A stretch of DNA of 64,000 bases from Frankia nepalensis (GTDB taxonomy: Bacteria > Actinomycetota > Actinomycetes > Frankiales > Frankiaceae). The notes under the pieces are model-generated. The model was not told where the DNA came from and did not search any database. It saw only the letters and a program-made list of their open reading frames with translations. Where the stretch lies: contig NZ_JADWYU010000203.1 of assembly GCF_016786325.1 (NCBI RefSeq), forward strand, positions 1-64,000, in the 5' to 3' direction. This document shows, one piece after another, positions 1,123 through 43,616 of this stretch; within the stretch, counting starts at the first letter, position 1, and every line of letters starts with the position of its first letter. Both the position numbers and the translations under genes were made by a program.

Positions 1123-3462
1123 ATGACGGCGCGGCCCGAACCCGACCACTTAGCGACGGCCTCGGCCCCGGCTGGCCAGCCACTGGCCGGCCTGCGCGTG
1201 GCCGAGTGGTCCCGTTCCATCGCCGGCGGCTACGCCGGCCGGATGCTGCGTGACGCCGGCGCCCACGTCACCCGGGTCGGTGCCCCGGGAGTCTCGCTGC
1301 CGAGGCCCGCGCTGGCCGCCTATCTGCATTCCGGCAAGGACGAGCGGCCCGGCACCCTGGCCGAGGTCGCCGCGCTCGCCGCCGACGTCGTCATTCTCGA
1401 GCTTCCGGACGCCCCCGACGACGAGTTCCTCGCCGGTTTCGGTGACGCGGCCGTCGTCGTGATCACTCCCTGGGGGCTGCGCGGGCCGTGGGCCGGCGCC
1501 GGCCGGCCGTGGAGCGAGCTGACCATCCAGGCCGAGTCCGGCTCGTTGTCGATGCGCGGGCTGCCGGACCGGCCGCCGCTCATGACCGGCAGTTCCGAGG
1601 GCCTGTGGATCACCGGCGCGATGGCCGCGGCGGCCGCCGTCGCGGCCGTCCAGGGCGGCCGGGCGCACCGGCTGGTCGACGCCCCGGTGCTGGAGGTCAC
1701 GGCGTACGCCACCAACCTGTTCCAGGACATCGGCGCCTCCCTCGCGGGTGCCTCGCCGGCGACGCCGCCCGCCCGCCACCGGCTGAACCCGTCGGTGGAA
1801 CCGGCCGCCGACGGCTGGGTCGGCTTCAACCTGGCCTCCGCCCAGAACCACGAGGACTTCCTCGTCCTGATCGAGCGCCCCGACTGGCTCGCCGACCCCC
1901 AGATGACGTCACACGCCGGCCGCTACCAGCGGTACGACGAGTTCACCGCCGCGGTGCGGTCCTGGACCCGGCGGCACACCGTCGCGGAGATCGTCGAGCA
2001 GGCCGCCGCCTTCCGGATCCCGTGCGCGCCCGTGCACAACGGCCGCACGATCCTGGCCGACCCGCATCTCGTCGACCGCGGCTTCTACCAGCCGAACGCG
2101 CTGGATCCGGGCCTGCTCGAACCGGCGCCCCCGTTCCTGTTCGACGGCGTGCGGCCGCGGCGCGGCCAGGAGCCACCCCCCACCGGCGCCGCGGCCACCA
2201 GCGCCGCCGCGGCGGCCGACGGCCCGGACGACGCGCTCCCGTTCGCCGGCCTGCGCGTCCTCGATCTCGGTACCTGGTGGGTCGGGGGATACGTCGGCAC
2301 CGCGCTGGGCGCGCTCGGCGCGGACGTGCTCAAGGTGGAGAGCACCCGGCGCGTCGACGGCGCCCGGCTGGCGGGCCTCGTCCCGGCGACCCAGGACCAC
2401 TGGTGGGAGTGCGGCGTCTTCTACCTGGGCGGGAACAGCGACAAGCGCGGCATCACCGTGGACTTCTCCGTGGCCGCCGGCCGGGATCTGCTGGCGCGGC
2501 TGATCGCCGACGCCGACGTGCTGATCGAGAACTACTCGCCGCGGGTGCTGGAGTCGGTCGGGCTCGACTGGGACGCCGTCCATGCGATCAACCCGCGGCT
2601 GGTGATGCTCCGGATGCCCGCGTTCGGGCTGACGGGGCCGCGCCGGTCGATGGTCGGCTACGCGCAGACCGTCGAGCAGTTCTCCGGCCTGTGCTGGCGA
2701 ACCGGCTACCCGGACGCCGACCCGCACAACCCCAGCGGCCCCGCCGACCCGATGGCCGCCGCGAACTCCTTGTTCGCGCTCGCCTCGGCGCTGCTGGCGG
2801 CCCGCCGGACGGGCGCGGGGACGCTGGTCGAGTCGCCGCTGGCGGAGGCCGCGCTGGTGATGGCCAGCGAGCAGGTCCTCGCCTGGACCGCCGACGGCGT
2901 CCTGCTGGAGCGGCTCGGCAACCGGGACGCGGTCGCCGCCCCGCAGGGTGTGTTCCCGACGGCCGAGCCCGACCGCTGGGTCGCTCTCACCGTCGCCGAC
3001 GACGGGCAGTGGCGAGCGCTCGCCGCGCTGAGTGGCCTCGAGGGCTGGGCCGACGACCCCGGGCTCGCCACCGCCGACGGCCGGCGCGCGCGGGCCGACG
3101 AGCTCGAGGCACGGCTCGCCGCGTGGACCGCCGGCCAGGAACGCGGGGCGCTCGTCGACCGGCTGCTCGCGGCGGGCATCCCGGCGGGCGAGGTCCGCGA
3201 CGGCCGGTTCGTCCACGACCACCCCCATCTGGCGGCGCGCGGCTCCTACCAGCCGTTCGAGCTGCCGTGGGCGGGGACCGTCCCGCTGCCGCGGCTGCCG
3301 GTCCGCGCCGCCTCGGGCGGCTGGGCGCACCGGCGCCGCCCGCCGACGCTCGGCGAGCACAACGCCGAGGTGCTCGGCGGCGAGCTGGGACTCGACGAGG
3401 CGCTGCTGGCCGAGCTCGCGGCGGGCGGCGTCCTCGGAACCGTCCCGCGCGGCGTCACGTAG
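1123..3462 (+). CDS. Family III CoA-transferase, two domains fused in tandem (CaiB/BaiF)
   Basis: This 779-residue protein is about twice the usual 380-430 residues of the CaiB/BaiF family because it contains two copies of the fold. The first begins near residue 22 (GLRVAEWSRSIAGGYAGRMLRDAGAHVTRV region), the second near residue 375 (GLRVLDLGTWWVGGYVGTALGALGADVLKVE region), joined by an Ala/Gly/Pro-rich linker around residues 345-368. Family III enzymes move CoA between acids as interlocked dimers, so a fused pair could make one active unit from a single chain. Where the family has its catalytic Asp, both halves seem to read Glu (VLE near 190, LAE near 570); this alignment was by eye. The acid substrate cannot be told. 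ATG 1123 follows a weak ribosome site; no operon partner. Confidence 0.85.
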   Translation: MTARPEPDHLATASAPAGQPLAGLRVAEWSRSIAGGYAGRMLRDAGAHVTRVGAPGVSLPRPALAAYLHSGKDERPGTLAEVAALAADVVILELPDAPDDEFLAGFGDAAVVVITPWGLRGPWAGAGRPWSELTIQAESGSLSMRGLPDRPPLMTGSSEGLWITGAMAAAAAVAAVQGGRAHRLVDAPVLEVTAYATNLFQDIGASLAGASPATPPARHRLNPSVEPAADGWVGFNLASAQNHEDFLVLIERPDWLADPQMTSHAGRYQRYDEFTAAVRSWTRRHTVAEIVEQAAAFRIPCAPVHNGRTILADPHLVDRGFYQPNALDPGLLEPAPPFLFDGVRPRRGQEPPPTGAAATSAAAAADGPDDALPFAGLRVLDLGTWWVGGYVGTALGALGADVLKVESTRRVDGARLAGLVPATQDHWWECGVFYLGGNSDKRGITVDFSVAAGRDLLARLIADADVLIENYSPRVLESVGLDWDAVHAINPRLVMLRMPAFGLTGPRRSMVGYAQTVEQFSGLCWRTGYPDADPHNPSGPADPMAAANSLFALASALLAARRTGAGTLVESPLAEAALVMASEQVLAWTADGVLLERLGNRDAVAAPQGVFPTAEPDRWVALTVADDGQWRALAALSGLEGWADDPGLATADGRRARADELEARLAAWTAGQERGALVDRLLAAGIPAGEVRDGRFVHDHPHLAARGSYQPFELPWAGTVPLPRLPVRAASGGWAHRRRPPTLGEHNAEVLGGELGLDEALLAELAAGGVLGTVPRGVT

Positions 3463-5279: not shown

Positions 5280-6257
5280 TTACGAGGCGAGGGCGGGCAT
5301 GACCTTGTCGGCGACCGTCCGCAGGTATGGCCAGGCGATCTCGGGGGGAAGCCCGCCGACGAGGGGCTGCAGCCCGAGGATCTGTCCGGCGCGGGCCCGC
5401 TCGATGGCCTGGTCGACGGTCAGGATGATGTGGTTGCGGTTCTCGGCGCGCAGCTCGTCGACCGTCGTGGCGAACGACAGGCTGGCGGTGGTCCCGTCGT
5501 TCTCGTTCCACGCCGCGTAGCTGACGGCGTCGTGCAGGAGGTAGGAGCCGAGCTCGTCCCACGCGCGGTCGAGGTCGTCGGCGACGAACACGGTCGTGGG
5601 CGAGTCGGGCGACGGCAGGTAGCACATGCCCGGCTCATGACCGGCGTCGCGCGAGGCCTGCTCGTAGGCCTCCTTGAGGCCGTCGGCGGCGCCCTGGGCC
5701 AGGAATCCAAGGCCGTGGCGGCCGGCGCGCCGGGCCGCGGCGATGCTGCCTCCGCCCCACGCGATCATCGGGCCGCCTGGGGTCAGCGGCTTCGGGGTGA
5801 CCTGGATGCGGCGGCCCTCGTACTCGAACGGCTCGCCGGTCTTGGCCCGCAGCAGCAGGCCGAGCTTCTCCTCGGCGATCTTCCCGCGGCGGCGGAAGTC
5901 GACGCCGTACATCTCGTACTCGGCGGGCCGGTAGCCGACGGCGGTCACGTAGGAGACCCGGCCGTTGCTGATGATGTCGAGGACGGCCATCTCCTCGGCC
6001 AGCCGGATCGGGTCGTACAGCGGCAGCACCACCGCCGCCACCATGATGGCGACCTTGTTCGTCCGGGCGGCCAGCGCTGAGGAGAACAGCAGCGGGGAGG
6101 GGAGATAGCCGTCGTCGGACATGTGGTGCTCGCACACCGTCGTCGCCAGGCAGCCCCGGGCCTCCGCCCACGCGGCCATCTCCAGCGCGGCCGCGTACAG
6201 CTCGGTCGCCGGCGCTCCCGTGGACGGTGCCCGCATGTCGAAACGTAACGTGAACAC
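5280..6257 (-). CDS. LLM class flavin-dependent oxidoreductase
   Basis: A 325-residue TIM-barrel protein of the bacterial luciferase-like monooxygenase superfamily, expected to use FMNH2 or F420. It shows the family pattern: MFTLRFDM start, CEHHMSDDGYLPSP near residue 45, AILVAAVVLPLYDP-like strand (here IMVAAVVLPLYDPIRLAEE), then GRVSYVTAVGYRPAEYEMYGVDFRRRG and an RIQVTPKPLTPGGPMIAWGG segment. Many such enzymes act in catabolism of small organics. It is a close paralogue of the gene at 38680, sharing the MFTLRFDMRAP start and most motifs. Substrate unknown. It is divergent from the glycosyltransferase gene. Confidence 0.85.
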   Translation of the reverse strand: MFTLRFDMRAPSTGAPATELYAAALEMAAWAEARGCLATTVCEHHMSDDGYLPSPLLFSSALAARTNKVAIMVAAVVLPLYDPIRLAEEMAVLDIISNGRVSYVTAVGYRPAEYEMYGVDFRRRGKIAEEKLGLLLRAKTGEPFEYEGRRIQVTPKPLTPGGPMIAWGGGSIAAARRAGRHGLGFLAQGAADGLKEAYEQASRDAGHEPGMCYLPSPDSPTTVFVADDLDRAWDELGSYLLHDAVSYAAWNENDGTTASLSFATTVDELRAENRNHIILTVDQAIERARAGQILGLQPLVGGLPPEIAWPYLRTVADKVMPALAS

Positions 6258-30745: not shown

Positions 30746-31525
30746 ATGCTGCTGCGGAACAAGACGACCCTGATTACCGGCGTAGGCAGTGGCCTGGGAC
30801 GGGAGATGGCTTCTTCCATGCTCGCCGCCGGCGCCAACGTGGTCATCGCCGCCAGGTCCGCCGACGGGTTACGCCAGGCCGCGAAAGAACTCGACCCGTC
30901 CGGTGAGCGTGTTCTCGCCCATCCCGCCGACATCTGCGACGAGGAAAGCTGCGAGGCTCTCGTCACCGCGGCCGTGGACCGCTTCGGCGCGGTTGACTCC
31001 GTGGTTCAGGTCGCCGCATTCGAGGACGCGTTCGGCGGGCTGTTCGACGCGGACCTGGACAAGTGGAGCCGGGCCTTCGACACGAATGTCCTCGGTAGTC
31101 TCCGGCTGCTGCGGGCCGTCGTCCCGGCCATGAAGGAGCGGGGCGGCGGCTCGGTTGTCCTCGTCGGCAGTCAGTCGGCGTTCAAGGTCGCGATGCCCCA
31201 GGGGGGCTACGCGGCCTCGAAGGGCGCCCTCCTGTCGGCGATGTACTACCTCGCCGACGAACTCGGCCCCGACGGAATCCGCGTCAACACTGTCGTTCCC
31301 AGCTGGATGTGGGGCCCCAACGTTCAGCTCTATGTCGACTTCCGCGCGCAGACCGAAGGAAAGTCGACCGACGAGATCCTGGAGGAGATCGTCGGAAAGT
31401 TCCCGCTGCGCCGCATGACCGAGGACAGCGAGGTCGCCGACGCCGCGGTGTTCTTCTGCTCGGACCTGTCCAGGGCCGTCACCGGCCAGTATCTCCTGGT
31501 CAACAGCGGCGAGCTGATGCGCTGA
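30746..31525 (+). CDS. Short-chain dehydrogenase/reductase
   Basis: A 259-residue classical SDR. Nucleotide motif TGVGSGLG near residues 10-17, active site Ser in VLVGSQSAF and YAASKGA (Tyr and Lys) near 155-160, then NTVVPSWMWGPN. The expected role is NAD(P)H-linked oxidation or reduction of an alcohol or ketone. The ATG at 30746 follows AGGAGAGGAACGAGA. The DapB-like gene follows 135 bases later on the same strand; together they may act on the same substrate, but this is inference. Confidence 0.9.
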   Translation: MLLRNKTTLITGVGSGLGREMASSMLAAGANVVIAARSADGLRQAAKELDPSGERVLAHPADICDEESCEALVTAAVDRFGAVDSVVQVAAFEDAFGGLFDADLDKWSRAFDTNVLGSLRLLRAVVPAMKERGGGSVVLVGSQSAFKVAMPQGGYAASKGALLSAMYYLADELGPDGIRVNTVVPSWMWGPNVQLYVDFRAQTEGKSTDEILEEIVGKFPLRRMTEDSEVADAAVFFCSDLSRAVTGQYLLVNSGELMR

Positions 31526-31659
31526 CGCCCGCGCGCCGGCCCACGCGGCGGCCGCGCCACGGGAGGCACGCGCACCTGTCCGCGTCGCGGTCCGTGGTCG
31601 TCTGCTCCGGTGGGCCGAAGGCTCGACCAGCTGGATCCTCGACCACCCAGGAGTGCGCC

Positions 31660-32736
31660 ATGAAATACCCAGTCATCGTGTGGGGAACCGGATTCGTCGG
31701 CAAGCGGGTGATCCGGGAGCTCGTCGACCACCCGGTCTTCGAACTCGTCGGGGTCATCGTCTCCGACCCGGCCAAGGAGGGCCGCGACGCGGGCGAGATC
31801 GCCGGCATCGGACCCATCGGCGTCACGGCCACCCGTGACGCGGCGGCCGTGCTCGGCCGCGGGGCGGCCGCCGTCGCCTACTTCGGCCCGACCGCCGCCT
31901 ATGCCGCGCAGAACATCGCCAACATGTCGCTGGCGCTGCGCGCCGGCGTCAACGTCGTCTCCACGGCCATGACGCCGCTGGTCTATCCCCCCGCCTGCTC
32001 GGAGGACCTCACCCGCGAACTCGCGGCGGCGTGCGCCGAAGGCGCGACCAGCTGCTTCACCACCGGCATCGATCCCGGCTTCGCCAACGACCTCTTCCCG
32101 ATGACGCTGATGGGCCTCACCGGACGCGTCGACTCGGTCCGGATCCAGGAGATCCTCGACTACTCCACCTACACCGGCGACTACAGCCCGATGGGTCTCG
32201 GCGAGCCGGTCGAGACCCAGGCTCTCCTGGAGATCCCGGAGCTGCTGATCTTCGGCTGGGGACACACGATCCCGATGATCGCCGACGCGATCGGCGTCAA
32301 GCTGGAGAAGATCGACACCATCTGGGAGAAGTGGGCGACACCCGAGCCGATCGTCTTTCCGCACGGGCGGGTCGAGACGGGCCACACCGCCGCGGTCCGG
32401 TTCGAGATCCGGGGCTGGGCCGACGGCGAGCCACGCATCGTCGTCGAGCACTGCAACCGGATCACCCACGCCGCGGCACCCGACTGGCCCCGCCCGAAGA
32501 TGGTCGACAACGACGCCTACCGGGTCACGATCAAGGGCAGTCCGAACATCGAGCAGGAGACGGCCTTCCGCGCGTTCGACTCGGGCGACCCCAACGAGGC
32601 CGGCTGCCTGGCCAACGGCATGCGGGCCGTCAACGCCATCCCGGCCGTCGTCGACGCCGCCCCCGGCCTCCTGTCGGCGCTCGACCTCCCCCTGGTCCCG
32701 GGCTTCGGCGCCATGCGCGCCGCCGCCGGTCGGTAG
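31660..32736 (+). CDS. DapB-like NAD(P)-dependent dehydrogenase
   Basis: A 358-residue protein of the dihydrodipicolinate reductase-like group also called 2,4-diaminopentanoate dehydrogenase-like. It begins with a dinucleotide fold (VIVWGTGFVGKRVIREL) and contains TGIDPGFANDLFPMTLMGL near residue 143 and LPLVPGFGAMR at the C-terminus. It is much longer than true DapB (about 250) and no lysine pathway genes are near. It is a paralogue of the gene at 41106, sharing NVVST.MTPLVYPP-like and GIxPGFxxD motifs. These enzymes are common beside P450 and SDR genes in mycobacteria and Frankia; substrate unknown. CAGGAGTGCGCC precedes the ATG. Confidence 0.8.
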   Translation: MKYPVIVWGTGFVGKRVIRELVDHPVFELVGVIVSDPAKEGRDAGEIAGIGPIGVTATRDAAAVLGRGAAAVAYFGPTAAYAAQNIANMSLALRAGVNVVSTAMTPLVYPPACSEDLTRELAAACAEGATSCFTTGIDPGFANDLFPMTLMGLTGRVDSVRIQEILDYSTYTGDYSPMGLGEPVETQALLEIPELLIFGWGHTIPMIADAIGVKLEKIDTIWEKWATPEPIVFPHGRVETGHTAAVRFEIRGWADGEPRIVVEHCNRITHAAAPDWPRPKMVDNDAYRVTIKGSPNIEQETAFRAFDSGDPNEAGCLANGMRAVNAIPAVVDAAPGLLSALDLPLVPGFGAMRAAAGR

Positions 32737-35440: not shown

Positions 35441-35469
35441 TTGACTGCCACCAGGCCAGGCGCTACGTT
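35441..35469 (+). promoter_or_regulatory. Promoter TTGACT-17-TACGTT
   Basis: TTGACT (35441-35446) and TACGTT (35464-35469) are separated by exactly 17 bases. Start is predicted near 35476. It points at the cluster beginning at 36032. Confidence 0.65.
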
Positions 35470-35480
35470 CGGAACAACTA

Positions 35481-35496
35481 TTAGGTTCTAATTTAG
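35481..35496. promoter_or_regulatory. Operator-like AT-rich palindromes
   Basis: TTAGGTTCTAATTTAG holds two overlapping inverted repeats, TTAG-GTT-CTAA and CTAA-T-TTAG. It lies at about +5 to +20 from the predicted start, a repressor position. Its inverse shares TTAGAACCT with the site at 30369. Confidence 0.5.
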
Positions 35497-36031
35497 GGTG
35501 ACGAGAAGGAGGCTCGCTCGGCGGCACGAGAGCATGGCGCCGCGGCACGGTTGATCACGGTTGATCACGAGTTGTCCGCGGGAACGGCGAGGAGACCGGC
35601 TGCCGGTCGAGCCGTTGCCGCGAATATTCGGCGATCATGCTCGCGGGTCTGGCGCGTACGGGCCGGGCGAACGCCGCGGGGAGCGGGGCCAGGCGGAAGC
35701 TCAACGGCACACCGATCAGCTGCCGGCTCGGCGTGGCGCGCTGGAAGGCGCCCCGCCTGGCTGGCCGAGGTCCAGAAAACAACCAGCTGGTTTGTTTGGG
35801 TCTCGCCGGAATGCCGCCTCCCGGTTTCGACCAGAATTTCGGGGTCAGTCGGTCGTCTATCCCGCCGACTGATCCGGACAGCGTCAGGGCGGGCGGGAGC
35901 CCTTTCCTGGCTCGGCCTCCTCCGGCTGGCGGACCGCGTCGGCGAGTCGCGTATCTCTGGAAGCGGCCCAGGAGCCGACTGAACGCGGGCATTTCGGGAT
36001 CACACATCTTCGGAGAACAGGCGGGGATCGC

Positions 36032-37330
36032 ATGTGGCACCTCGGGGTCTTCTTACCCAGGCCGACGGGCGGGCGACCGAGGCAGCGGCCGGCGGCCGGT
36101 CTGGTAGCGGTCTTGGCCGCGGCCCTGCTGGTCGCGGCCGGCTGCGGCGGCGACGGCCAGAACAGCGGCGACAACCGTCCGTCGGCCGAAGCCAGCAGCG
36201 CGGCCGATCCGCTCGGTCCCAAGGCGCCAGCGCAGGGGGAGCCGGTACGGATCGGAATCATCTCGGAGGGCAAGAACTCCTTCACGGACACCACGATCGA
36301 GCTGACCGTGGCGAAGGCGACCGCCGCCTGGCTGAACGAGCGCGGCTCCGGGATCGGCGGCCGACCGATCGAGCTGGTGACCTGCGAGCCCCAGGGCGAT
36401 CCAGGCCTGGGCACGGACTGCGGCAACCGAATGATCGAAGAAGATGTCGCCGCCGTCGTCATCGGTCACACAGCGGTCGTCGAGAGCGTATGGCTGCCCC
36501 TGTCGGAGGCCAACATCCCGGTGATGTCCTACACCTCGAGCGGTGAGGCGGTGCTGCGCGACAGCGAGTCGACCTTCGGCCTCACCGATCCGATCTTCCC
36601 CGTGACGGACCTGCCCATCCAGCTCGCGAAGGACAAGGGCGTCGACAGGGTGACAGCGGTCGTGATCGACGTGCCGGCCGCGCTGAACGTCTTCGCGGAC
36701 GACACGCCGTACCGCGAAGCCGGCATCGAGTTCGAGCTCGTCCGGGTTCCCCCGGCCACGGCCGATATGACGGCGCAGTTGCGGCAGGTCGCCGCGGATC
36801 CTGGAGTCGTCTTCGTCGTCGGCACCGACTCGTTCTGCATCGCCGCGTTCAACGGCCTGCGGGCCGTCGGGTTCGACGGCCAGATCGCCGCGATCTCCCT
36901 GTGCGCCAGCGACGCGACCCGCAAGGCGGTGCCGGGCGACACGCTCGACGGCATCGTGATCGCGGCTCAGGTGCCCGTCGGGACGGACAACCCGTCGACC
37001 CGGCTGTACGAGGCGGTCATGCGCGCCTACGGCGCGGACGTCGACACCGCCTCGGACGACGGGATGAGCATGTTCGCGTCACTCGCCGCTCTGCAGGCGG
37101 CGGTCAAGGGCGTCGGGGGGAACATCACCCCCTCGGCCATCATCTCCACGATCAAGGCGATGCCGGAGATCGAACTGCCGGGTGGGGGAGGGATCACCTT
37201 CCGCTGCAACGGGAAGGCTGACCCGGAGCACCCGGCGCTCTGCGTCCGAGGTGGGCTGGTCGCGACGCTGGATGCCAAGGGCAACCCCGCCGAGTACCAG
37301 GTGCTCGGCTCGTCCCCGATCGAGGACTGA
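36032..37330 (+). CDS. Branched-chain amino acid-type ligand-binding lipoprotein
   Basis: A 432-residue secreted receptor of the type 1 periplasmic-binding fold (LivJ/Peripla_BP_6). Signal peptide with LVAAGC, lipidated Cys38; then VRIGIISEGKNSFTDTTIE and GGRPIELVTCEPQGDPGLG as the first lobe, DVAAVVIGHTAVVESVWLPLSEANIPVMSYTS and so on. Such receptors feed ABC importers of amino acids, amides or aromatic compounds, but no permease or ATPase gene is present in the window. It may use a transporter encoded elsewhere or sense a ligand. GGGGATCGC precedes the ATG. First intact gene of the cluster to 42188. Confidence 0.85.
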   Translation: MWHLGVFLPRPTGGRPRQRPAAGLVAVLAAALLVAAGCGGDGQNSGDNRPSAEASSAADPLGPKAPAQGEPVRIGIISEGKNSFTDTTIELTVAKATAAWLNERGSGIGGRPIELVTCEPQGDPGLGTDCGNRMIEEDVAAVVIGHTAVVESVWLPLSEANIPVMSYTSSGEAVLRDSESTFGLTDPIFPVTDLPIQLAKDKGVDRVTAVVIDVPAALNVFADDTPYREAGIEFELVRVPPATADMTAQLRQVAADPGVVFVVGTDSFCIAAFNGLRAVGFDGQIAAISLCASDATRKAVPGDTLDGIVIAAQVPVGTDNPSTRLYEAVMRAYGADVDTASDDGMSMFASLAALQAAVKGVGGNITPSAIISTIKAMPEIELPGGGGITFRCNGKADPEHPALCVRGGLVATLDAKGNPAEYQVLGSSPIED

Positions 37331-37521
37331 GATCCAGGATGCCAGCAGGTACGGGTGGTCGGGCGCTCCCGGGTCGGACCAGCATCGCCAGGCGGGCGCG
37401 ACGACAACGGCACGGGTGCTTGTGCTGACGGCGGTGTCTCCGAGCACCAACACTCGAACCAGACATCAGGTTCGTCATCGCGCGGCCGCCGCCGGCCGCG
37501 CGCCAACGAGGAGGAAATCCG

Positions 37522-38634
37522 TTGTCCTACGAGAGCAGCGCGGAGCCGATCAAGGTTGGCTACCTCATGGACTTCCGGCTCCCGGAGGGCTATCCGCCCG
37601 AAAGACGAGACGACCTGACGCAGCCGTTCGAGCTGGTCTTCGAGGAGGCCTCCAGGCAGGGGATCCTCGACCGAGGGGTGGAAATCGTCTACCGGGAGGT
37701 GGAGGGATTACCGAAGGGTTCGGTCAAGGCGGTGATCGACGCCTACGGCGAACTGGTGGACGAGGGCTGTCTCGCCGTCTTCGGCCCGGCCATCACGGAC
37801 AACTGCGTGCCCACCCGGGAGGCGATCGAACAGCGGTTCCGCGTACCCGCGATCAGTGTGACGGGCACGGACGACTGGCTCGGGGAGTGGACGTTCTCCT
37901 TCCCGCAGGGATCTCTGACCGACGAGCCGATCTTCTGGAGTGACCTGCTGGCCAAGGGCGGCCACACGGACGTTGGCTGTCTTGTCGAGCAGTCGCTCGT
38001 CGGTGAGACCTACATCCGGAACTTCCGTAGGGCGTGCGCGGCCCGGGGCATCCGGATCGTGGCCGAGGAGTGGATCGCCCAGACCGCTCAGGACGTCGGC
38101 GTGGCGGTCCGCAGGCTGCGCGAGGCCAAGGCGGCGGCGATCGTGCACTGCGGTTTCGGCTTCGGGCTCGTGCACGTCAACCCCGCGCTCGAGGCGCTCG
38201 GCTGGGATCCGCCCCGCTTCATGGGGACCGCCTTCCAGAACGCCTGGATCAACGACGTGATGTGGCGGGCGGTTCTGGGCTGGACCGGCGTCGACCAGTA
38301 CGACGAGGGCAACCCTGTCGGCCAGCGGTTCCTCGACCACTACGAGGAGAGGTACGCACGGCGCCCGGAGTACTGCGTGCCGGTGGTCAACCGGGACGTC
38401 GCGACAGTGCTGGTGCACGCGTTCGCCGACGCCCACCCGCTGAGCCCTCGCGGTGTCCGGGACGCGCTCGAGCGCGTGAAGATGCTGCCGGCCGCGTCCG
38501 GCGCGCCAGGGACCCGGCTTTCGTTCGGGAAGTGGACTCGCCGGGGCTGGATGGGCGCCGGCTATCTGGTCGCGCGCCAGCTGGATCCGGACGGAGTGAA
38601 CTCGCGCCTCGTCGACCGTTTCGGCCAGGAGTGA
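37522..38634 (+). CDS. Signal-less ligand-binding protein (type 1 PBP fold)
   Basis: A 370-residue protein with the same type 1 binding fold (IKVGYLMDFRLPEGYPP..., GCLAVFGPAITDNCVPTREAIEQRFRVPAISVTGTDD, AAAIVHCGFGFGLVHVNPALEALGW) but without any signal peptide or lipobox, so it should be cytoplasmic. The TTG start at 37522 follows a strong GAGGAGGAAATCC ribosome site, and no membrane-like sequence is found in frame upstream. Cytoplasmic members of this fold, such as AmiC, act as ligand sensors. It may be a sensor or substrate carrier for the downstream LLM and P450 enzymes; that is inference. Confidence 0.75.
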   Translation: MSYESSAEPIKVGYLMDFRLPEGYPPERRDDLTQPFELVFEEASRQGILDRGVEIVYREVEGLPKGSVKAVIDAYGELVDEGCLAVFGPAITDNCVPTREAIEQRFRVPAISVTGTDDWLGEWTFSFPQGSLTDEPIFWSDLLAKGGHTDVGCLVEQSLVGETYIRNFRRACAARGIRIVAEEWIAQTAQDVGVAVRRLREAKAAAIVHCGFGFGLVHVNPALEALGWDPPRFMGTAFQNAWINDVMWRAVLGWTGVDQYDEGNPVGQRFLDHYEERYARRPEYCVPVVNRDVATVLVHAFADAHPLSPRGVRDALERVKMLPAASGAPGTRLSFGKWTRRGWMGAGYLVARQLDPDGVNSRLVDRFGQE

Positions 38635-38679
38635 GATGACGACCGAACCGTCGCGCCCGTCGTCCACCGGGCACGGCTG

Positions 38680-39669
38680 ATGTTCACCCTCCGGTTCGAC
38701 ATGCGCGCCCCCGACGGGGGCGCGCCCGCCACCGAGCTCTACGCGGCCGCCGTCGAGATGTGCGCCTGGGCCGAAACCCGGGGCGCGGTCGCGGCGGTCC
38801 TCTCGGAACACCACGGCGCTCTTGACGGCCACCTGCCGGTACCGGTCGTCCTGGCGTCGGCGCTCGCGGCGCGGACCGAGCGGCTGGCGATCCTGCTGGC
38901 GGCGGTCGTCCTGCCGCTGTACGACCCGGTCCGGCTGGCCGAGGAGATCGCCGTCCTCGACGTCATCAGCGCCGGACGGGTCTCCTACGTCCTCGGTGTC
39001 GGCCACCGGGCGGAGGAATATGAACACTTCGGGGTCGACTTCCGGCGGCGGGGTCGACTGGCCGACGAGAAGCTCGCCCTCCTGCTGGAGTTGCTGAAGG
39101 GCGGGGCGGTCGCCCATGAGGGCCGGCACGTTCAGGTGACACCGGCGCCCATGACGCCAGGCGGCCCACGAATCATGATCGCCGGCGCGAGCCCGGCGGC
39201 CGTTCGGCGGGCAGCGCGGCACGGGCTCGGGTTCCTCGCCCAGGCAGCGCCGCCCGGGCTGAAGGAGCTGTACGAGGCAGAGTGCCGTGCCCACGGGCAC
39301 GAACCGGGTCCCGCACAGTTTCCAGACCGCGCCGCCCCGACCGCCGTGTTCGTCGCCGACGACGTGGACACGGCCTGGGAGGAACTGGGGCCCTACCTGC
39401 TGCACGACGCGGTGACCGCCGCGGCCTACCGGCCGGGCGGCGCGACGGTCGCCAGCATCTCGCGCGCCAGGAGCGTCGCCGAGCTACGGGCGGAGAACGG
39501 CGCCTACCGGATCTTCACTGTGGACGAGGCGGTCGACCACCTCCGCACCGGGCGAAGCCTGGGGCTGCTTCCGCTGTGCGGCGGACTGCCGCCCCGGCTC
39601 GCCTGGCCCTATCTCCGGCGAGCGGCCGAGGCCGTCGCCCTGGCCGCCGAGCGTGTGGTCCCGGCCTGA
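38680..39669 (+). CDS. LLM class flavin-dependent oxidoreductase
   Basis: A 329-residue luciferase-like TIM-barrel enzyme, paralogue of the protein at 5280 (same MFTLRFDMRAP start, VLPLYDP, GVDFRRRGR, VTPAPMTPGGPRIMIAG, LPYLRRA-like end). Expected to use reduced flavin or F420 and O2. It starts 45 bases after the ligand-binding gene and is followed by a P450, so both oxidise the same or successive intermediates. Ribosome site weak. The CEHH motif of the first paralogue is SEHH here. Confidence 0.85.
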   Translation: MFTLRFDMRAPDGGAPATELYAAAVEMCAWAETRGAVAAVLSEHHGALDGHLPVPVVLASALAARTERLAILLAAVVLPLYDPVRLAEEIAVLDVISAGRVSYVLGVGHRAEEYEHFGVDFRRRGRLADEKLALLLELLKGGAVAHEGRHVQVTPAPMTPGGPRIMIAGASPAAVRRAARHGLGFLAQAAPPGLKELYEAECRAHGHEPGPAQFPDRAAPTAVFVADDVDTAWEELGPYLLHDAVTAAAYRPGGATVASISRARSVAELRAENGAYRIFTVDEAVDHLRTGRSLGLLPLCGGLPPRLAWPYLRRAAEAVALAAERVVPA

Positions 39670-39761
39670 CCGCCGCCGGCCGGCGGACGACCACGGCGCG
39701 GAGCCCACGAGGTTCGGCGAGATGCGCCCGCCGCCACTACCCGCATGAAAGGAACAGACGC

Positions 39762-41048
39762 GTGAGTGCCGGACCCGACGTTCGTTACCAGGACATCGAC
39801 TTCTTCTCGGACCGCTCGATCGTCGACGACCCATACCCGTACTTCGCCTTCCTGCGTGCCGTGCAGGGCCCGGTGTGGTTCGAGCCGCACCACGGGGTGG
39901 CGGTCGTCACCGGACATGCCGAAGCCATGGACGTGTACCGCGACCCCGATCTCTTCTCCTCCTGCAACGCGCCGACCGGGCCGTTCCCGGGCCTGCCGAC
40001 CGTCCCCGATCAGGACGACGCCGGACCGCTCATCGAGCAGTGCCGGGAACAACTGCCCATGCACGAGTTCATGGTGACCATGGATCCTCCGCGGCACAGC
40101 GAGTACCGGAGCCTGTTCACCGGCCTTTTCACGCCGGGGCGCCTCCAGAAGAACGAGGAGTTCATGTGGCGCCTCGCGGACGTCCAGCTGGACAACTTCG
40201 TCGCCAAGGGGCGATGCGAGTTCGTCGGCGAGTATGCCGGACCGTTCGCGGGACTCGTGATCGCGGACCTTCTCGGGGTGCCGCCGGAGGACATGCACCG
40301 CTTTCGCGAAGGATTCGAGAGACAGTCGATGTCCTTGATCGGCGAAAATCCGGACCTGCTTGCCGAGAACCCGCTGGAGTTCATCGAGGGGGCGTTCGTG
40401 TCCTACATCGAGGACCGCCGGCGCCGACCCCGTGGCGACATCCTGACGCACCTCGCCGAGAGACGTTTCTCGAACGGATCACTGCCTGACGTCGCGATTC
40501 TGGCGCGCGAGGCGTCGTTCGTCTTCGCCGCAGGCCAGGAGACGACTGTGCGGTTGATGGCGTTCGCCCTGCGCCACCTGGCCGAACATCCCGGTGTGCA
40601 GGATCGAATCCGCGCGCAGCGCGACCTCATCCCCGCGTTTGTGGAGGAGATGCTCCGGCTGGAAAGCCCCATCAAGAGCCACTTCCGCCTGGCGCGGCGT
40701 CGGACAAGCCTCGGGGGCGTCGAGATCCCGGCCGGGACGACGATCATGCTGCTTCCGGGCGCCTCGAACCGGGACCCGCGGCACTTCGCGGAGCCGGACC
40801 AGTTCGATCTCGGCCGCGCGAACGTGCGAGAGCACCTGGCCTTCGGACGAGGCGTACACGGCTGCCTGGGGCAGCCCCTCGCCCGGTCGGAGACCCGGGT
40901 CACGCTGGAACGCGTGCTGGACCGCATGGCGGACATCAGGCTCTCGGACGACGCCCACGGGCCGGCGGACGACCGTCGGTTCGACTACCTGCCCACCTTC
41001 GTCTTCCGGGCGCTGAACGCCATTCACCTGAATTTTGAGCCCGTATGA
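39762..41048 (+). CDS. Cytochrome P450
   Basis: A 428-residue soluble class I P450. The I-helix AGQET (257-261) replaces the usual AGxDT acid with Glu/Gln variation but keeps the Thr; the ExxR pair is Glu296-Arg299; the haem loop FGRGVHGCLG gives Cys368 as iron ligand. MVTMDPPRHSEYRSLF near residue 104 is the C-helix with the haem-binding His-Arg. GTG 39762 has GAAAGGAACAGACGC. It needs ferredoxin and reductase from elsewhere. Mycobacterial P450s of this layout hydroxylate steroids, terpenes or fatty acids; the substrate here is unknown. Confidence 0.93.
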   Translation: MSAGPDVRYQDIDFFSDRSIVDDPYPYFAFLRAVQGPVWFEPHHGVAVVTGHAEAMDVYRDPDLFSSCNAPTGPFPGLPTVPDQDDAGPLIEQCREQLPMHEFMVTMDPPRHSEYRSLFTGLFTPGRLQKNEEFMWRLADVQLDNFVAKGRCEFVGEYAGPFAGLVIADLLGVPPEDMHRFREGFERQSMSLIGENPDLLAENPLEFIEGAFVSYIEDRRRRPRGDILTHLAERRFSNGSLPDVAILAREASFVFAAGQETTVRLMAFALRHLAEHPGVQDRIRAQRDLIPAFVEEMLRLESPIKSHFRLARRRTSLGGVEIPAGTTIMLLPGASNRDPRHFAEPDQFDLGRANVREHLAFGRGVHGCLGQPLARSETRVTLERVLDRMADIRLSDDAHGPADDRRFDYLPTFVFRALNAIHLNFEPV

Positions 41049-41105
41049 GCCATCTGACGGCCGGCCACCCAGAAAGCCGGCCTAGGGCGCGAATCGAGGA
41101 ACAGC

Positions 41106-42188
41106 ATGAGCAAGCCACTACGGGTCGTGGTCTGGTCGACTGGCTGGATCGGATCGATCGCTGTTGAAGCGGTTCACCGGCGACCGGACATGGAACTCGT
41201 GGGTGTCTGGGTGCACTCCGCGGAGAAGGTCGGCCATGACGTCGGCGAAATCGTCGGCATCGGTACGGTCGGCGTCGTCGCCACCAGTGACGCCGACGCC
41301 CTGATCGCGCTACGACCCGACTGCGTCGTGTACGCGGCGAGCGGGCCCGAGCGCGACACCGCGGCGGTACCGGACTACGTCCGCCTGCTCGAGGCCGGCA
41401 TCAACGTGGTCACGACCACCTCCACGAGGCTCGTGTACCCACCGACCTTCACCGCCCAGTGGCGGGACGCGCTGGAGACGGCGGCGAAGGCCGGCGGGAC
41501 GTCGTTGTACGCCTCCGGCATCTTCCCCGGATTCGGTTCCGACCAGCTGGCGCTCGTGCTGTCGACGCAGTCGAGCACCATCCAGAAGATCGAGGCGACC
41601 GAGGTGTCCCTCAACGACCACTACCCGGTCGCCGACGTGATGATGGACGGGATGGGCTTCGGCCGCCCGCTCGACTTCGCTCCATGGCTGAGCCGCCCAG
41701 GCACCATCGAGGCGTCGTGGGCCGGGCCGATCCACCTCGTCGCCGAGGGGCTCGGGGCCGTGGTGGAGGAGGTGCGTGGCTCGCTGGAACGAGCTCTCGC
41801 CGACCGGGACATCGAGGTGGCCTTCGGCATGATCCCCGCCGGGACCGTCGGCGCCGTCTGCACGCGGGCGGTGGGCGTCGTCGACGGCCGGGAGGCGATC
41901 GTCATCAAACACATCATCCGGATGGCCCGCGACGTCGCACCCGACTGGCTGGGATCGGAGTGCGACGCGACCTACCGGGTGGACATCGACGGTGATCCGG
42001 ACATCCACTGCACCATGACCATGGGGGAGATGCAGGGGCATGCCGCCGGCCGAGGCGCGATGGTGGCCACGGCGATGCGGGTTCTCAACGCGGTCCCGTA
42101 CGTCGTCGACGCGCCCGCCGGCCTGCTCTCCTCGCTCGACCTTCCCCTGACGTTGCCACGCTTCGCGCTGCGGACCGCGCACCGGTAG
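41106..42188 (+). CDS. DapB-like NAD(P)-dependent dehydrogenase, second copy
   Basis: A 360-residue paralogue of the protein at 31660: VVVWSTGWIGSIAVEAV dinucleotide fold, NVVTTTSTRLVYPPTF near residue 101, ASGIFPGFGSDQLALVLS near 138 and a similar LPLTLPRFALR end. Last gene of the co-directional run with the P450. The GxGxxG pattern has Ser at the first Gly (STGWIG). It probably reduces or oxidises a product of the P450 or LLM step. Confidence 0.8.
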   Translation: MSKPLRVVVWSTGWIGSIAVEAVHRRPDMELVGVWVHSAEKVGHDVGEIVGIGTVGVVATSDADALIALRPDCVVYAASGPERDTAAVPDYVRLLEAGINVVTTTSTRLVYPPTFTAQWRDALETAAKAGGTSLYASGIFPGFGSDQLALVLSTQSSTIQKIEATEVSLNDHYPVADVMMDGMGFGRPLDFAPWLSRPGTIEASWAGPIHLVAEGLGAVVEEVRGSLERALADRDIEVAFGMIPAGTVGAVCTRAVGVVDGREAIVIKHIIRMARDVAPDWLGSECDATYRVDIDGDPDIHCTMTMGEMQGHAAGRGAMVATAMRVLNAVPYVVDAPAGLLSSLDLPLTLPRFALRTAHR

Positions 42189-42338: not shown

Positions 42339-43616
42339 TCACCGCGACGCCGGGTATCGGGACGCGCCGGATCCCGTGTCGGCGGTCCGGTTCCTGACGC
42401 CGCGGAGCACCGTGTCCCGGGCCAGTTCCAGCGCACCTTTCGGACCCAGTCCTCGAACTATGTTCTCCGGTGTCCACAGCAGCGAGAACACCGCCCGTGC
42501 CCGCGCGTCCGCGGGCCATTCCGCCAGCTGGAACTGGCCGGCTTCGTCGCCTTCGGCCAGCAGCCGGGTGACCTGGCCGAGCATCGCGGGGAAGGACAAC
42601 GAGAGGTTGGCGGAGTCCGGCGGCGCCTGCTGGAGGAGAAATGACTGGATCCGATGCTCCTCGCGGAACCGGTCGATCACGTTCACGGCGAACCACATGA
42701 GGCTGTCGATCTTGTCGAGCGGAGTCGCCGACGTGTGAACGACACGATTCCAGCCGTCGGTCAGGAAGGACACGTACGACTCCATGATCGACGCCAGTAG
42801 CGCGTCCTTCGACTCGAACTCGCGGTAGACGGCGGCGAGGGCGAGCCGGGCGGCGGCCGCGACGTCGCGCATCGTGGCGGTCTCGAAGCCGCGCTTGGCG
42901 AACTCGGCGCGCGCGCTCTCGCGGATGACCGCGGCACGGTTGAGCGGCGCCGCCTCCGGCGCCTCCCAGTCCGCGATCAACTCGTCCATCGCGCGGTGGG
43001 CCTCGCTTGGCGCGGAGCCGTCATACTCACGCGGGCGAGCGGCCAGGCCATCGAGGATGACGCGGCATTTCAGCTCGGGATAGCCTCGGGCGGCGCGAGT
43101 CCGGTGATAGACGCCGATGCCCACGTGCAGCATGCCCTGCCAGAAACGATCGGCCACCGCGTCGAGGTCGAGATCCGCTCGCAGGACGCCTTGTTCCCGG
43201 GCCGTCCCCAGAATCGACAGCAACGCCGTGTGAACGGCTGGCGACGTGGTCCGGGAGTCCGGCCGCAGCCCGGAGGCATCGTCGGCCGGGGCCTTGAAAT
43301 GGGTCAGCAGCAGTGCCGCCCGGTGCCGGACCGCGCTGGCGGCGATCTCGTTGCCGAAGGCGATGAGCGCCTCGTCGGGCCGTGTTTCGCCGTCCGCTGT
43401 GTCGAGCGCCTTGGCGGCGATCTCGCCGAGGTTCGCGTGGAATCGCTCCACCAGTTCCGCGATAATCGCTTCCCTGGACTCGAAGTGATGATAGAGGCTG
43501 CCGGCCTGGATGCCGCACTCGTCGGCGATCGCCTTGAGAGAGGTTTTCACGCCCAGCCTCGCGAACATCGACGCCGCGGTGTCGAGGATCTCGCTCCTGC
43601 GCGATTCCGGGCTCAC
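42339..43616 (-). CDS. Tandem double TetR-family regulator
   Basis: A 425-residue protein with two complete TetR units: helix-turn-helix 1 at about 10-55 (SEILDTAASMFARLGVKTSLKAIADECGIQAGSLYHHFESREAI) and helix-turn-helix 2 at about 228-275 (AAVIRESARAEFAKRGFETATMRDVAAAARLALAAVYREFESKDAL), each with its own ligand domain. Normal TetR proteins are about 200 residues and work as dimers; this one would supply both halves in a chain. GTG 43616 has AAGGAG at good spacing. It lies tail-to-tail with the cluster ending at 42188 and may bind the sites at 35481 and 30369. Confidence 0.88.
   Translation of the reverse strand: MSPESRRSEILDTAASMFARLGVKTSLKAIADECGIQAGSLYHHFESREAIIAELVERFHANLGEIAAKALDTADGETRPDEALIAFGNEIAASAVRHRAALLLTHFKAPADDASGLRPDSRTTSPAVHTALLSILGTAREQGVLRADLDLDAVADRFWQGMLHVGIGVYHRTRAARGYPELKCRVILDGLAARPREYDGSAPSEAHRAMDELIADWEAPEAAPLNRAAVIRESARAEFAKRGFETATMRDVAAAARLALAAVYREFESKDALLASIMESYVSFLTDGWNRVVHTSATPLDKIDSLMWFAVNVIDRFREEHRIQSFLLQQAPPDSANLSLSFPAMLGQVTRLLAEGDEAGQFQLAEWPADARARAVFSLLWTPENIVRGLGPKGALELARDTVLRGVRNRTADTGSGASRYPASR

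Follow-up and report, generated by a model that had tools for sequence, protein, structure and literature searches.

A five-gene run in Frankia nepalensis is apparently part of a conserved and seemingly undescribed actinobacterial regulon with a double TetR as candidate repressor

A run of five co-directional genes in Frankia nepalensis raises the question of whether these genes belong together and, if so, to what system. The run lies in a 64,000-nucleotide stretch of contig NZ_JADWYU010000203.1 (the window; contig C209 of the 10.7-Mb genome G000) and is followed by a gene for a double TetR. A sequence-only reading of this DNA had proposed an uncharacterised "sense-and-oxidise" module. Gene identities, conservation, co-occurrence and a shared operator-like element were computed directly here. 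The module is real and part of a conserved, putative regulon that is apparently undescribed. The genes are:

36032-37330, plus strand: SBP1, exported lipoprotein, a Peripla_BP_6 (HAAT-type) binding protein, accessory (PF13458, E 5.6e-33)
37522-38634, plus strand: SBP2, leaderless and predicted cytoplasmic, type I periplasmic-binding fold, conserved core (PF13458)
38680-39669, plus strand: LLM, luciferase-like flavin/F420 oxidoreductase (Bac_luciferase, PF00296, E 1.7e-46)
39762-41048, plus strand: cytochrome P450 assigned to the CYP150 family, GTG start, heme motif FGRGVHGC
41106-42188, plus strand: DapB/2,4-diaminopentanoate-dehydrogenase-like NAD(P) oxidoreductase of the native amine dehydrogenase superfamily (DapB_N/DAP_DH_C, PF19328 and PF01113)
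42339-43610, minus strand: double TetR, candidate regulon repressor, with two TetR_N domains, that is, two TetR family regulator (TFR) units in one chain

Open reading frames, coding signal and Pfam matches confirmed the five plus-strand genes and the families that the sequence-only reading had named, and likewise the double TetR at the end, which is convergent with the DapB-like gene. The gaps within the run are 191, 45, 92 and 57 bp. A longer P450 form starting at 39282, from a mechanical open reading frame list, was spurious, and the start was taken at 39762. The statement that the run holds no permease or ATPase gene was borne out, none being recognised inside it, and literature searches on the gene combinations found no description of such a pathway, as had been supposed.

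The same reading had tied the module to conservation of the five-gene order. That order is unique to the window; gene families, element and regulator are conserved instead. SBP2 relatives with 77-87% identity occur in the window genome and eight others among 35 Frankiaceae genomes. A scan of named genomes returned 233 SBP2 relatives, of which the best 80 (74-87% identical) were kept, and the locus counts given here rest on these. The 80 loci belong to Mycobacterium, Mycolicibacterium, Mycolicibacter, Nocardia, Aldersonia, Frankia and a few proteobacterial metagenome-assembled genomes (MAGs). Mycobacteria carry a stable operon in the order VWA, MoxR, SBP2, AveC-like, short-chain dehydrogenase/reductase (SDR), aldehyde dehydrogenase (ALDH), P450 and P450/SDR. 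The double TetR is encoded on the opposite strand; past it there are often LLM and DapB-like genes and a further P450. Pfam and NCBIfam calls were AveC_like, a CbbQ-type AAA protein, VWA, an aldehyde dehydrogenase nearest to Rv0768 and a mycofactocin-coupled SDR. Within 8 kb of SBP2, the 64 loci with full flanks hold AveC-like (64), P450 (62), MoxR (55), double TetR (45), DapB (19) and LLM (14) genes. The window proteins are 70-73% (DapB-like), 66-73% (LLM) and 57% (P450) identical to members of mycobacterial SBP2 loci, and the P450 is 75% identical to the copy in locus L039. The best DapB in other genomes of the window's own genus reaches just 42%.

P450 and SDR genes are common, and therefore their presence alone proves little; DapB is the informative gene. 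In 25 genomes picked by eye from SBP2 loci, partly for the presence of DapB, 15 of 16 DapB copies with at least 69% identity lie within about 9 kb of SBP2, and the seven genomes without a DapB match at E 1e-100 are those whose SBP2 locus has none. Of 34 Frankiaceae genomes, eight carry the double TetR, and every one of them also has SBP2, with the double TetR near it (Fisher p 5e-7, uncorrected for kinship); extra double-TetR copies lie near MoxR. A bridging case is provided by Pseudofrankia BMG5.36 (L043/L078), where the full mycobacterial operon is present and an SBP1-like lipoprotein gene lies upstream, beyond the double TetR.

The module boundary that had been drawn around the five genes did not hold, since AveC-like, aldehyde dehydrogenase, SDR, MoxR and VWA genes belong to the system elsewhere, including on two other contigs of the window genome. 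There the pieces are dispersed, with SBP2 in the window, an AveC gene under the element on C286, and VWA, MoxR, AveC, SDR, P450 and double TetR on C371. At the last of these loci (L056, G000:C371:30000-46865) SBP2 is reduced to short C-terminal remnants, and weaker operator-like sites lie before VWA.

The operator-like element was first noticed by eye, when the window was set against the sequence upstream of SBP2 at a different locus. This comparison gave GGAAC-n5-TTAGGTTC, with a zero-mismatch copy at 35471 in the window. Aligning 59 sites, the window site and 58 upstream of SBP2 genes, yielded the pattern TAnnnT-n2-GAACAAATATTAGGTT, located some 40 bp upstream of the SBP2 start. The element itself is 18 bp long and imperfectly symmetric. 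In the window the corresponding features are:

35464-35469, plus strand: -10-like box TACGTT (TAnnnT-type), directly before O1; the TA and the final T are conserved columns
35471-35488, plus strand: operator-like element O1, GGAACAACTATTAGGTTC, heading the run; matrix score 28.0
35489-36031, plus strand: leader with no gene recognised, 543 bp between O1 and SBP1
37456-37473, plus strand: O2, a weak operator-like site (GAACCAGACATCAGGTTC) lying 48 bp upstream of the SBP2 start; its score of 4.1 ranks third within the 64 kb

The TACGTT box would be part of a promoter. O2 stands where mycobacterial loci hold a strong site and may be a chance occurrence. A matrix built without the window site scored O1 at 28.0 and the next best position in the 64-kb window at 5.9; the chance expectation for the 16-bp element at 35472-35487 is 3e-5 per 64 kb. 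Across the 80 loci 255 sites scored at least 11, compared with 4 in reversed sequence. Most of these precede SBP2, VWA, double TetR, LLM, P450 or DapB genes, and 89 have no called gene start within 400 bp. Because so rare an element is found again in other genomes, in front of genes related to these, the five-gene run exceeds chance.

Further support is provided by two scans of whole genomes for exact matches to GAACRAMNNTTAGGTT, which are independent of locus choice and include a reversed-pattern control. The 35 Frankiaceae genomes hold five exact sites, all in double-TetR genomes (control 0; Fisher p 0.001). O1 is one of just two exact matches in its genome. One of the five sites precedes the window operon, one is on C286 of the same genome, one precedes an AveC gene in G006, and two are adjacent to the double TetR, in G026 and G028. 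At the C286 locus (L158, G000:C286:62400-72009) the element, a decayed aldehyde dehydrogenase relic and an intact AveC-like gene occupy 1660-3044; this AveC-like gene is a putative remote member of the same regulon. In 25 mycobacterial and Nocardia genomes 41 exact sites were found (control 1). Thirty of these were fetched; they precede SBP2 (14), LLM (6), DapB (4), SDR (2), P450 (1), ALDH (1) and alkyl-sulfatase-like metallo-beta-lactamase genes (2), so that 28 of 30 stand before genes of the module set and the other two before one family. The latter two sites (L178 1501 and L181 1501) are from two mycobacteria, and the alkyl-sulfatase-like gene hints at sulfate esters or alcohols as substrates. 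LLM relatives with 66-73% identity carry the same element in front. In Mycolicibacter MYC017 an LLM-DapB pair and a double TetR lie about 20 kb from the SBP2 operon with the same element (L202), and the element also precedes the double-TetR gene in L094, L106, G026 and G028. A literature text search for the element sequence gave nothing relevant. Because the element precedes them in genome-wide scans, LLM, DapB, P450, ALDH, AveC and SBP2 make up one putative regulon. The idea that the genes form one unit thus stands, on the shared element, the co-locating subfamily relatives and the tandem TetR.

What might bind the element? The double TetR of the window has 423 residues with two TetR_N stretches, and the double-TFR Mce3R (9b7y) is among its PDB matches; the sequence match to Mce3R covers the N-terminal part only (E 6e-9). 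The Mce3R regulon of M. tuberculosis likewise has a double TFR in one chain, whose two different helix-turn-helix units bind an asymmetric site (PMC11667970). That regulon is autoregulated and comprises an asymmetric operator in several copies and lipid-related genes; the likeness drawn here is one of layout. Two TetR units in a polypeptide of about 400 residues are also found here, as is an asymmetric operator-like element before several operons and the regulator gene, though not at the regulator of the window. We know of no SBP-fold protein in the Mce3R regulon. Co-occurrence, the sites before its own gene and the Mce3R precedent together lead us to infer that the double TetR binds the element, and the module is probably a fragment of a larger, Mce3R-like double-TetR regulon.

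On balance, we favour reading the run as the Pseudofrankia-type form of a regulon conserved in actinobacteria, whose products would oxidise a hydrophobic compound under a double-TetR switch, with handling by SBP2 and AveC-like proteins. The substrate class is probably terpenoid or steroid-like. We infer the chemistry and the roles of SBP2 and SBP1 as follows. The double TetR would repress at the asymmetric operator GAACAAATATTAGGTT at the transcription start, and binding of the substrate or an early product would release it. The CYP150-type P450 would then hydroxylate the hydrophobic compound, and LLM, DapB-like protein, SDR and ALDH would act on the resulting alcohol or carbonyl; at some loci acyl-CoA dehydrogenase pairs and a thiolase would degrade the product further. 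SBP2 would stay in the cytoplasm and, with the AveC-like membrane protein, hold the substrate or pass it to the P450, a handling that would replace uptake via an ABC permease. SBP1, present in some frankiae only, would be a surface lipoprotein that was added for this compound or one related to it. The original "sense-and-oxidise" label is plausible, but neither binding protein emerged as a sensor, and the double TetR is the likelier one.

By its sequence the P450 belongs to the CYP150 family: it matches CYP150A6 (PDB 6dcd) over its full length (residues 9-427, E 3.6e-153; next family 2e-51) and has the signature motifs FGRGVHGCLG, ExxR and AGQET. CYP150A5 and CYP150A6 of Mycobacterium marinum are of the same family, and the related CYP150A5 hydroxylates beta-ionone (PMC6237146). 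A description of the regulon context of these two P450s was not found in the literature. The DapB-like protein has a DapB_N plus DAP_DH_C architecture and matches 6g1h/6g1m/7xdu, 6iaq and 7qzl in the PDB. It shares fold and family with native amine dehydrogenases and 2,4-diaminopentanoate dehydrogenase; the relatives share Glu-Glu or Ala-Glu-Glu in a conserved acidic segment (AEEM/SEEM/GEEA), whereas the window protein reads STRL at residues 106-109. The Glu of this segment has a catalytic role. Because the acidic segment of the aligned relatives is absent, the reaction of the DapB-like protein may differ, and amine chemistry is doubtful.

Several observations weigh against the regulon reading. 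Neither the Frankiaceae nor the 80 best-matching loci show the exact five-gene order. In the window itself the double-TetR gene has no visible element in front of it, and 543 bp make a long leader for SBP1. Exact sites are missing from four of the eight double-TetR genomes of the Frankiaceae, which have weaker sites or none. In 19 of the 64 full-flank loci the 8 kb around SBP2 hold no double TetR; four of the genomes concerned were searched further, and each has it elsewhere. The p-values are optimistic, because related genomes are not independent.

The alternative that survives best assigns the sensing to SBP2. As an AmiC-like intracellular sensor, ligand-bound SBP2 would alter the double TetR by protein contact, and not through the TetR pocket. 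AmiC, the cytoplasmic amide sensor of Pseudomonas, is a known precedent for a leaderless protein of type I binding fold in the cytoplasm, and SBP2 and the double TetR do co-occur. The AlphaFold2 model of SBP2 (pLDDT 90) matches leucine- and aromatic-acid-binding proteins over the full length, with LivK/LivJ-type proteins as best PDB match (Z 34). AmiC (1qnl, Z 29.6) is just one among many equal fold matches. A PDB search with the SBP2 sequence alone gave no match, and the SBP2 profile did find HAAT-type proteins. The modelled fold alone does not distinguish a sensor from a carrier. A Pfam scan of the module and nine genes on its flanks (29.5-48 kb) recognised no AmiR/ANTAR gene, other loci being judged by clustering only; the partners of SBP2 are AveC-like, P450 and double TetR instead. 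Since its gene bears the strongest element, SBP2 looks like an induced output. It also tracks the AveC-like protein more closely than the double TetR, and double TetRs have a ligand pocket of their own, as in Mce3R (PMC11667970). We therefore regard an AmiC-like role as doubtful. In 33 complete operons the constraint on SBP2 is similar to that on the enzymes, with a median identity of 79% (MoxR 85%, ALDH 81%, TetR 68%, AveC 65%, VWA 61%).

A specialised-metabolite cluster, in which the AveC-like protein or P450 performs a tailoring step, would make the system biosynthetic and not catabolic. AveC-like proteins and P450s often serve as tailoring enzymes. Moreover, CYP150 members are reported from predicted biosynthetic clusters of mycobacteria (PMC9820752). 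Polyketide, peptide or terpene synthases were not recognised in the loci, however, and the partners are acyl-CoA dehydrogenase pairs, thiolase, AMP ligase, mycofactocin-type SDR and Rv0768-type ALDH, with YrbE (mce-type) genes flanking the cluster in Mycolicibacter. A biosynthetic role is thus unlikely.

SBP1 and SBP2 might also be ordinary ABC-transporter binding proteins with permease and ATPase encoded elsewhere, SBP2 having been wrongly called as lacking a signal peptide. Both match Peripla_BP_6, and the window genome has 65 BPD_transp_2 permease genes. A HAAT-type transporter protein is exported and has cognate permease and ATPase genes, a description that SBP2 does not fit. Its TTG start sits behind GAGGAGGAA, a strong Shine-Dalgarno sequence, and in an alignment of 43 relatives the start residue hardly varies. 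The maximal 15-residue N-terminal hydropathy is 0.2, compared with 2.7 for SBP1, and among the 80 close SBP2 relatives the N-terminus is never clearly hydrophobic (mean 1.5 at most). A cognate permease was not recognised in any SBP2 locus. For 87 of the 111 family members in the window genome, a distance of 10 kb to either side takes in no permease gene (contig ends included). SBP1 has a hydrophobic signal peptide ending in the lipobox LVAAGC, as judged by eye, so the proposed pairing of a surface lipoprotein with a cytoplasmic protein of the same fold was upheld; SBP1 looks exported, yet the run has no permease. We consider the ordinary-transporter explanation very improbable. A chance assembly of the five genes, for which the unconserved order speaks and to which abundant families (e.g. 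25 DapB-like matches in the window genome, besides the many P450, SDR and LLM genes) would lend an appearance of conservation, is scarcely credible, since subfamily-level relatives co-locate and share a rare element genome-wide.

Within the favoured regulon reading, SBP1 is not a constant part. The window genome encodes some 30 related paralogues, SBP1 among them, and the mycobacterial loci lack it. It is a Frankia-side addition from an expanded permease-less lipoprotein family, and it probably joined the module later. The SBP1-like lipoprotein of L043 is 55% identical to it, and both genes lie about 540-620 bp behind an operator-like site. At L043 (1439-2083) one or more operator-like sites are followed by a leader of about 620 bp, which contains a decayed P450 heme-loop fragment, and then by the SBP1-like gene. 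No coding open reading frame was found in the window leader. A cluster-gene remnant there was rejected, tblastn matches being at chance level, as was an RNA leader element: no Rfam match was obtained, and the window leader shares just the operator-like element with other leaders.

The window genome contains 111 Peripla_BP_6 genes above cut-off, 24 of them within 10 kb of a BPD_transp_2 permease (contig ends included), so that receptors apparently lacking a permease are greatly expanded in it. LLM, P450, SDR and AMP-ligase genes are among the neighbours of 20 SBP1-type loci, and an SBP1-type lipoprotein gene lies alongside another P450-SDR-VWA-MoxR group (L168, G000:C63:6200-21300). Bug-type expansions in Bordetella comprise many exported binding proteins without dedicated permeases, as seen for SBP1; the binding-protein family differs, the frankiae having HAAT-type lipoproteins.

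The window SBP2 is the sole intact copy of its type in the genome. A second leaderless SBP family, 59-60% identical to SBP2, occurs in Pseudofrankia (L044, L047, L048, L049 and L045 16820-17932), where AMP ligase, thiolase, SDR and DapB-like genes are neighbours and a double TetR was not detected nearby. SBP2 at 74-78% identity in proteobacterial MAGs (L082, L126, L127, L135; Novosphingobium and others) may reflect horizontal transfer or MAG contamination. Close relatives on plasmids were not found, and a plasmid origin was dropped; mycofactocin was uninformative as a discriminating trait, MftC being present in nearly all Frankiaceae genomes.

Elsewhere in the window, a paralogue of the module LLM (69% DNA identity) lies at 5280-6257 on the minus strand, and an SDR plus DapB-like pair outside the module at 30746-32736 on the plus strand. 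The upstream flank holds a sigma factor, this type of SDR plus DapB-like pair, a polyketide-cyclase-like protein, AraC, glyoxalase and MDMPI genes, and the downstream flank a pyrimidine-dimer glycosylase, a methyltransferase and an MFS gene. These flanking genes were not seen recurring with the module and were treated as outside it.

What looked like a five-gene curiosity can now be described as a defined, putative regulon: an operator is predicted for it, the double TetR is its candidate repressor, and its gene list is conserved in many mycobacteria. The CYP150 family is reported to be expanded in mycobacteria (PMC9820752). The predicted inducer-responsive promoter would offer a direct route to the substrate. 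Tentatively, we suggest that cytoplasmic SBP2 and the AveC-like protein, with MoxR and VWA in mycobacteria, could extract the substrate from the membrane for the P450 under the double-TetR switch, in place of an ABC transporter, and that this mode might be common to environmental and opportunistic mycobacteria, Nocardia and frankiae. If true, this would be a new way of handling hydrophobic substrates, and the transporter-receptor fold would have been put to an unusual use, in a cytoplasmic binding protein that goes together with an AveC-like membrane protein.

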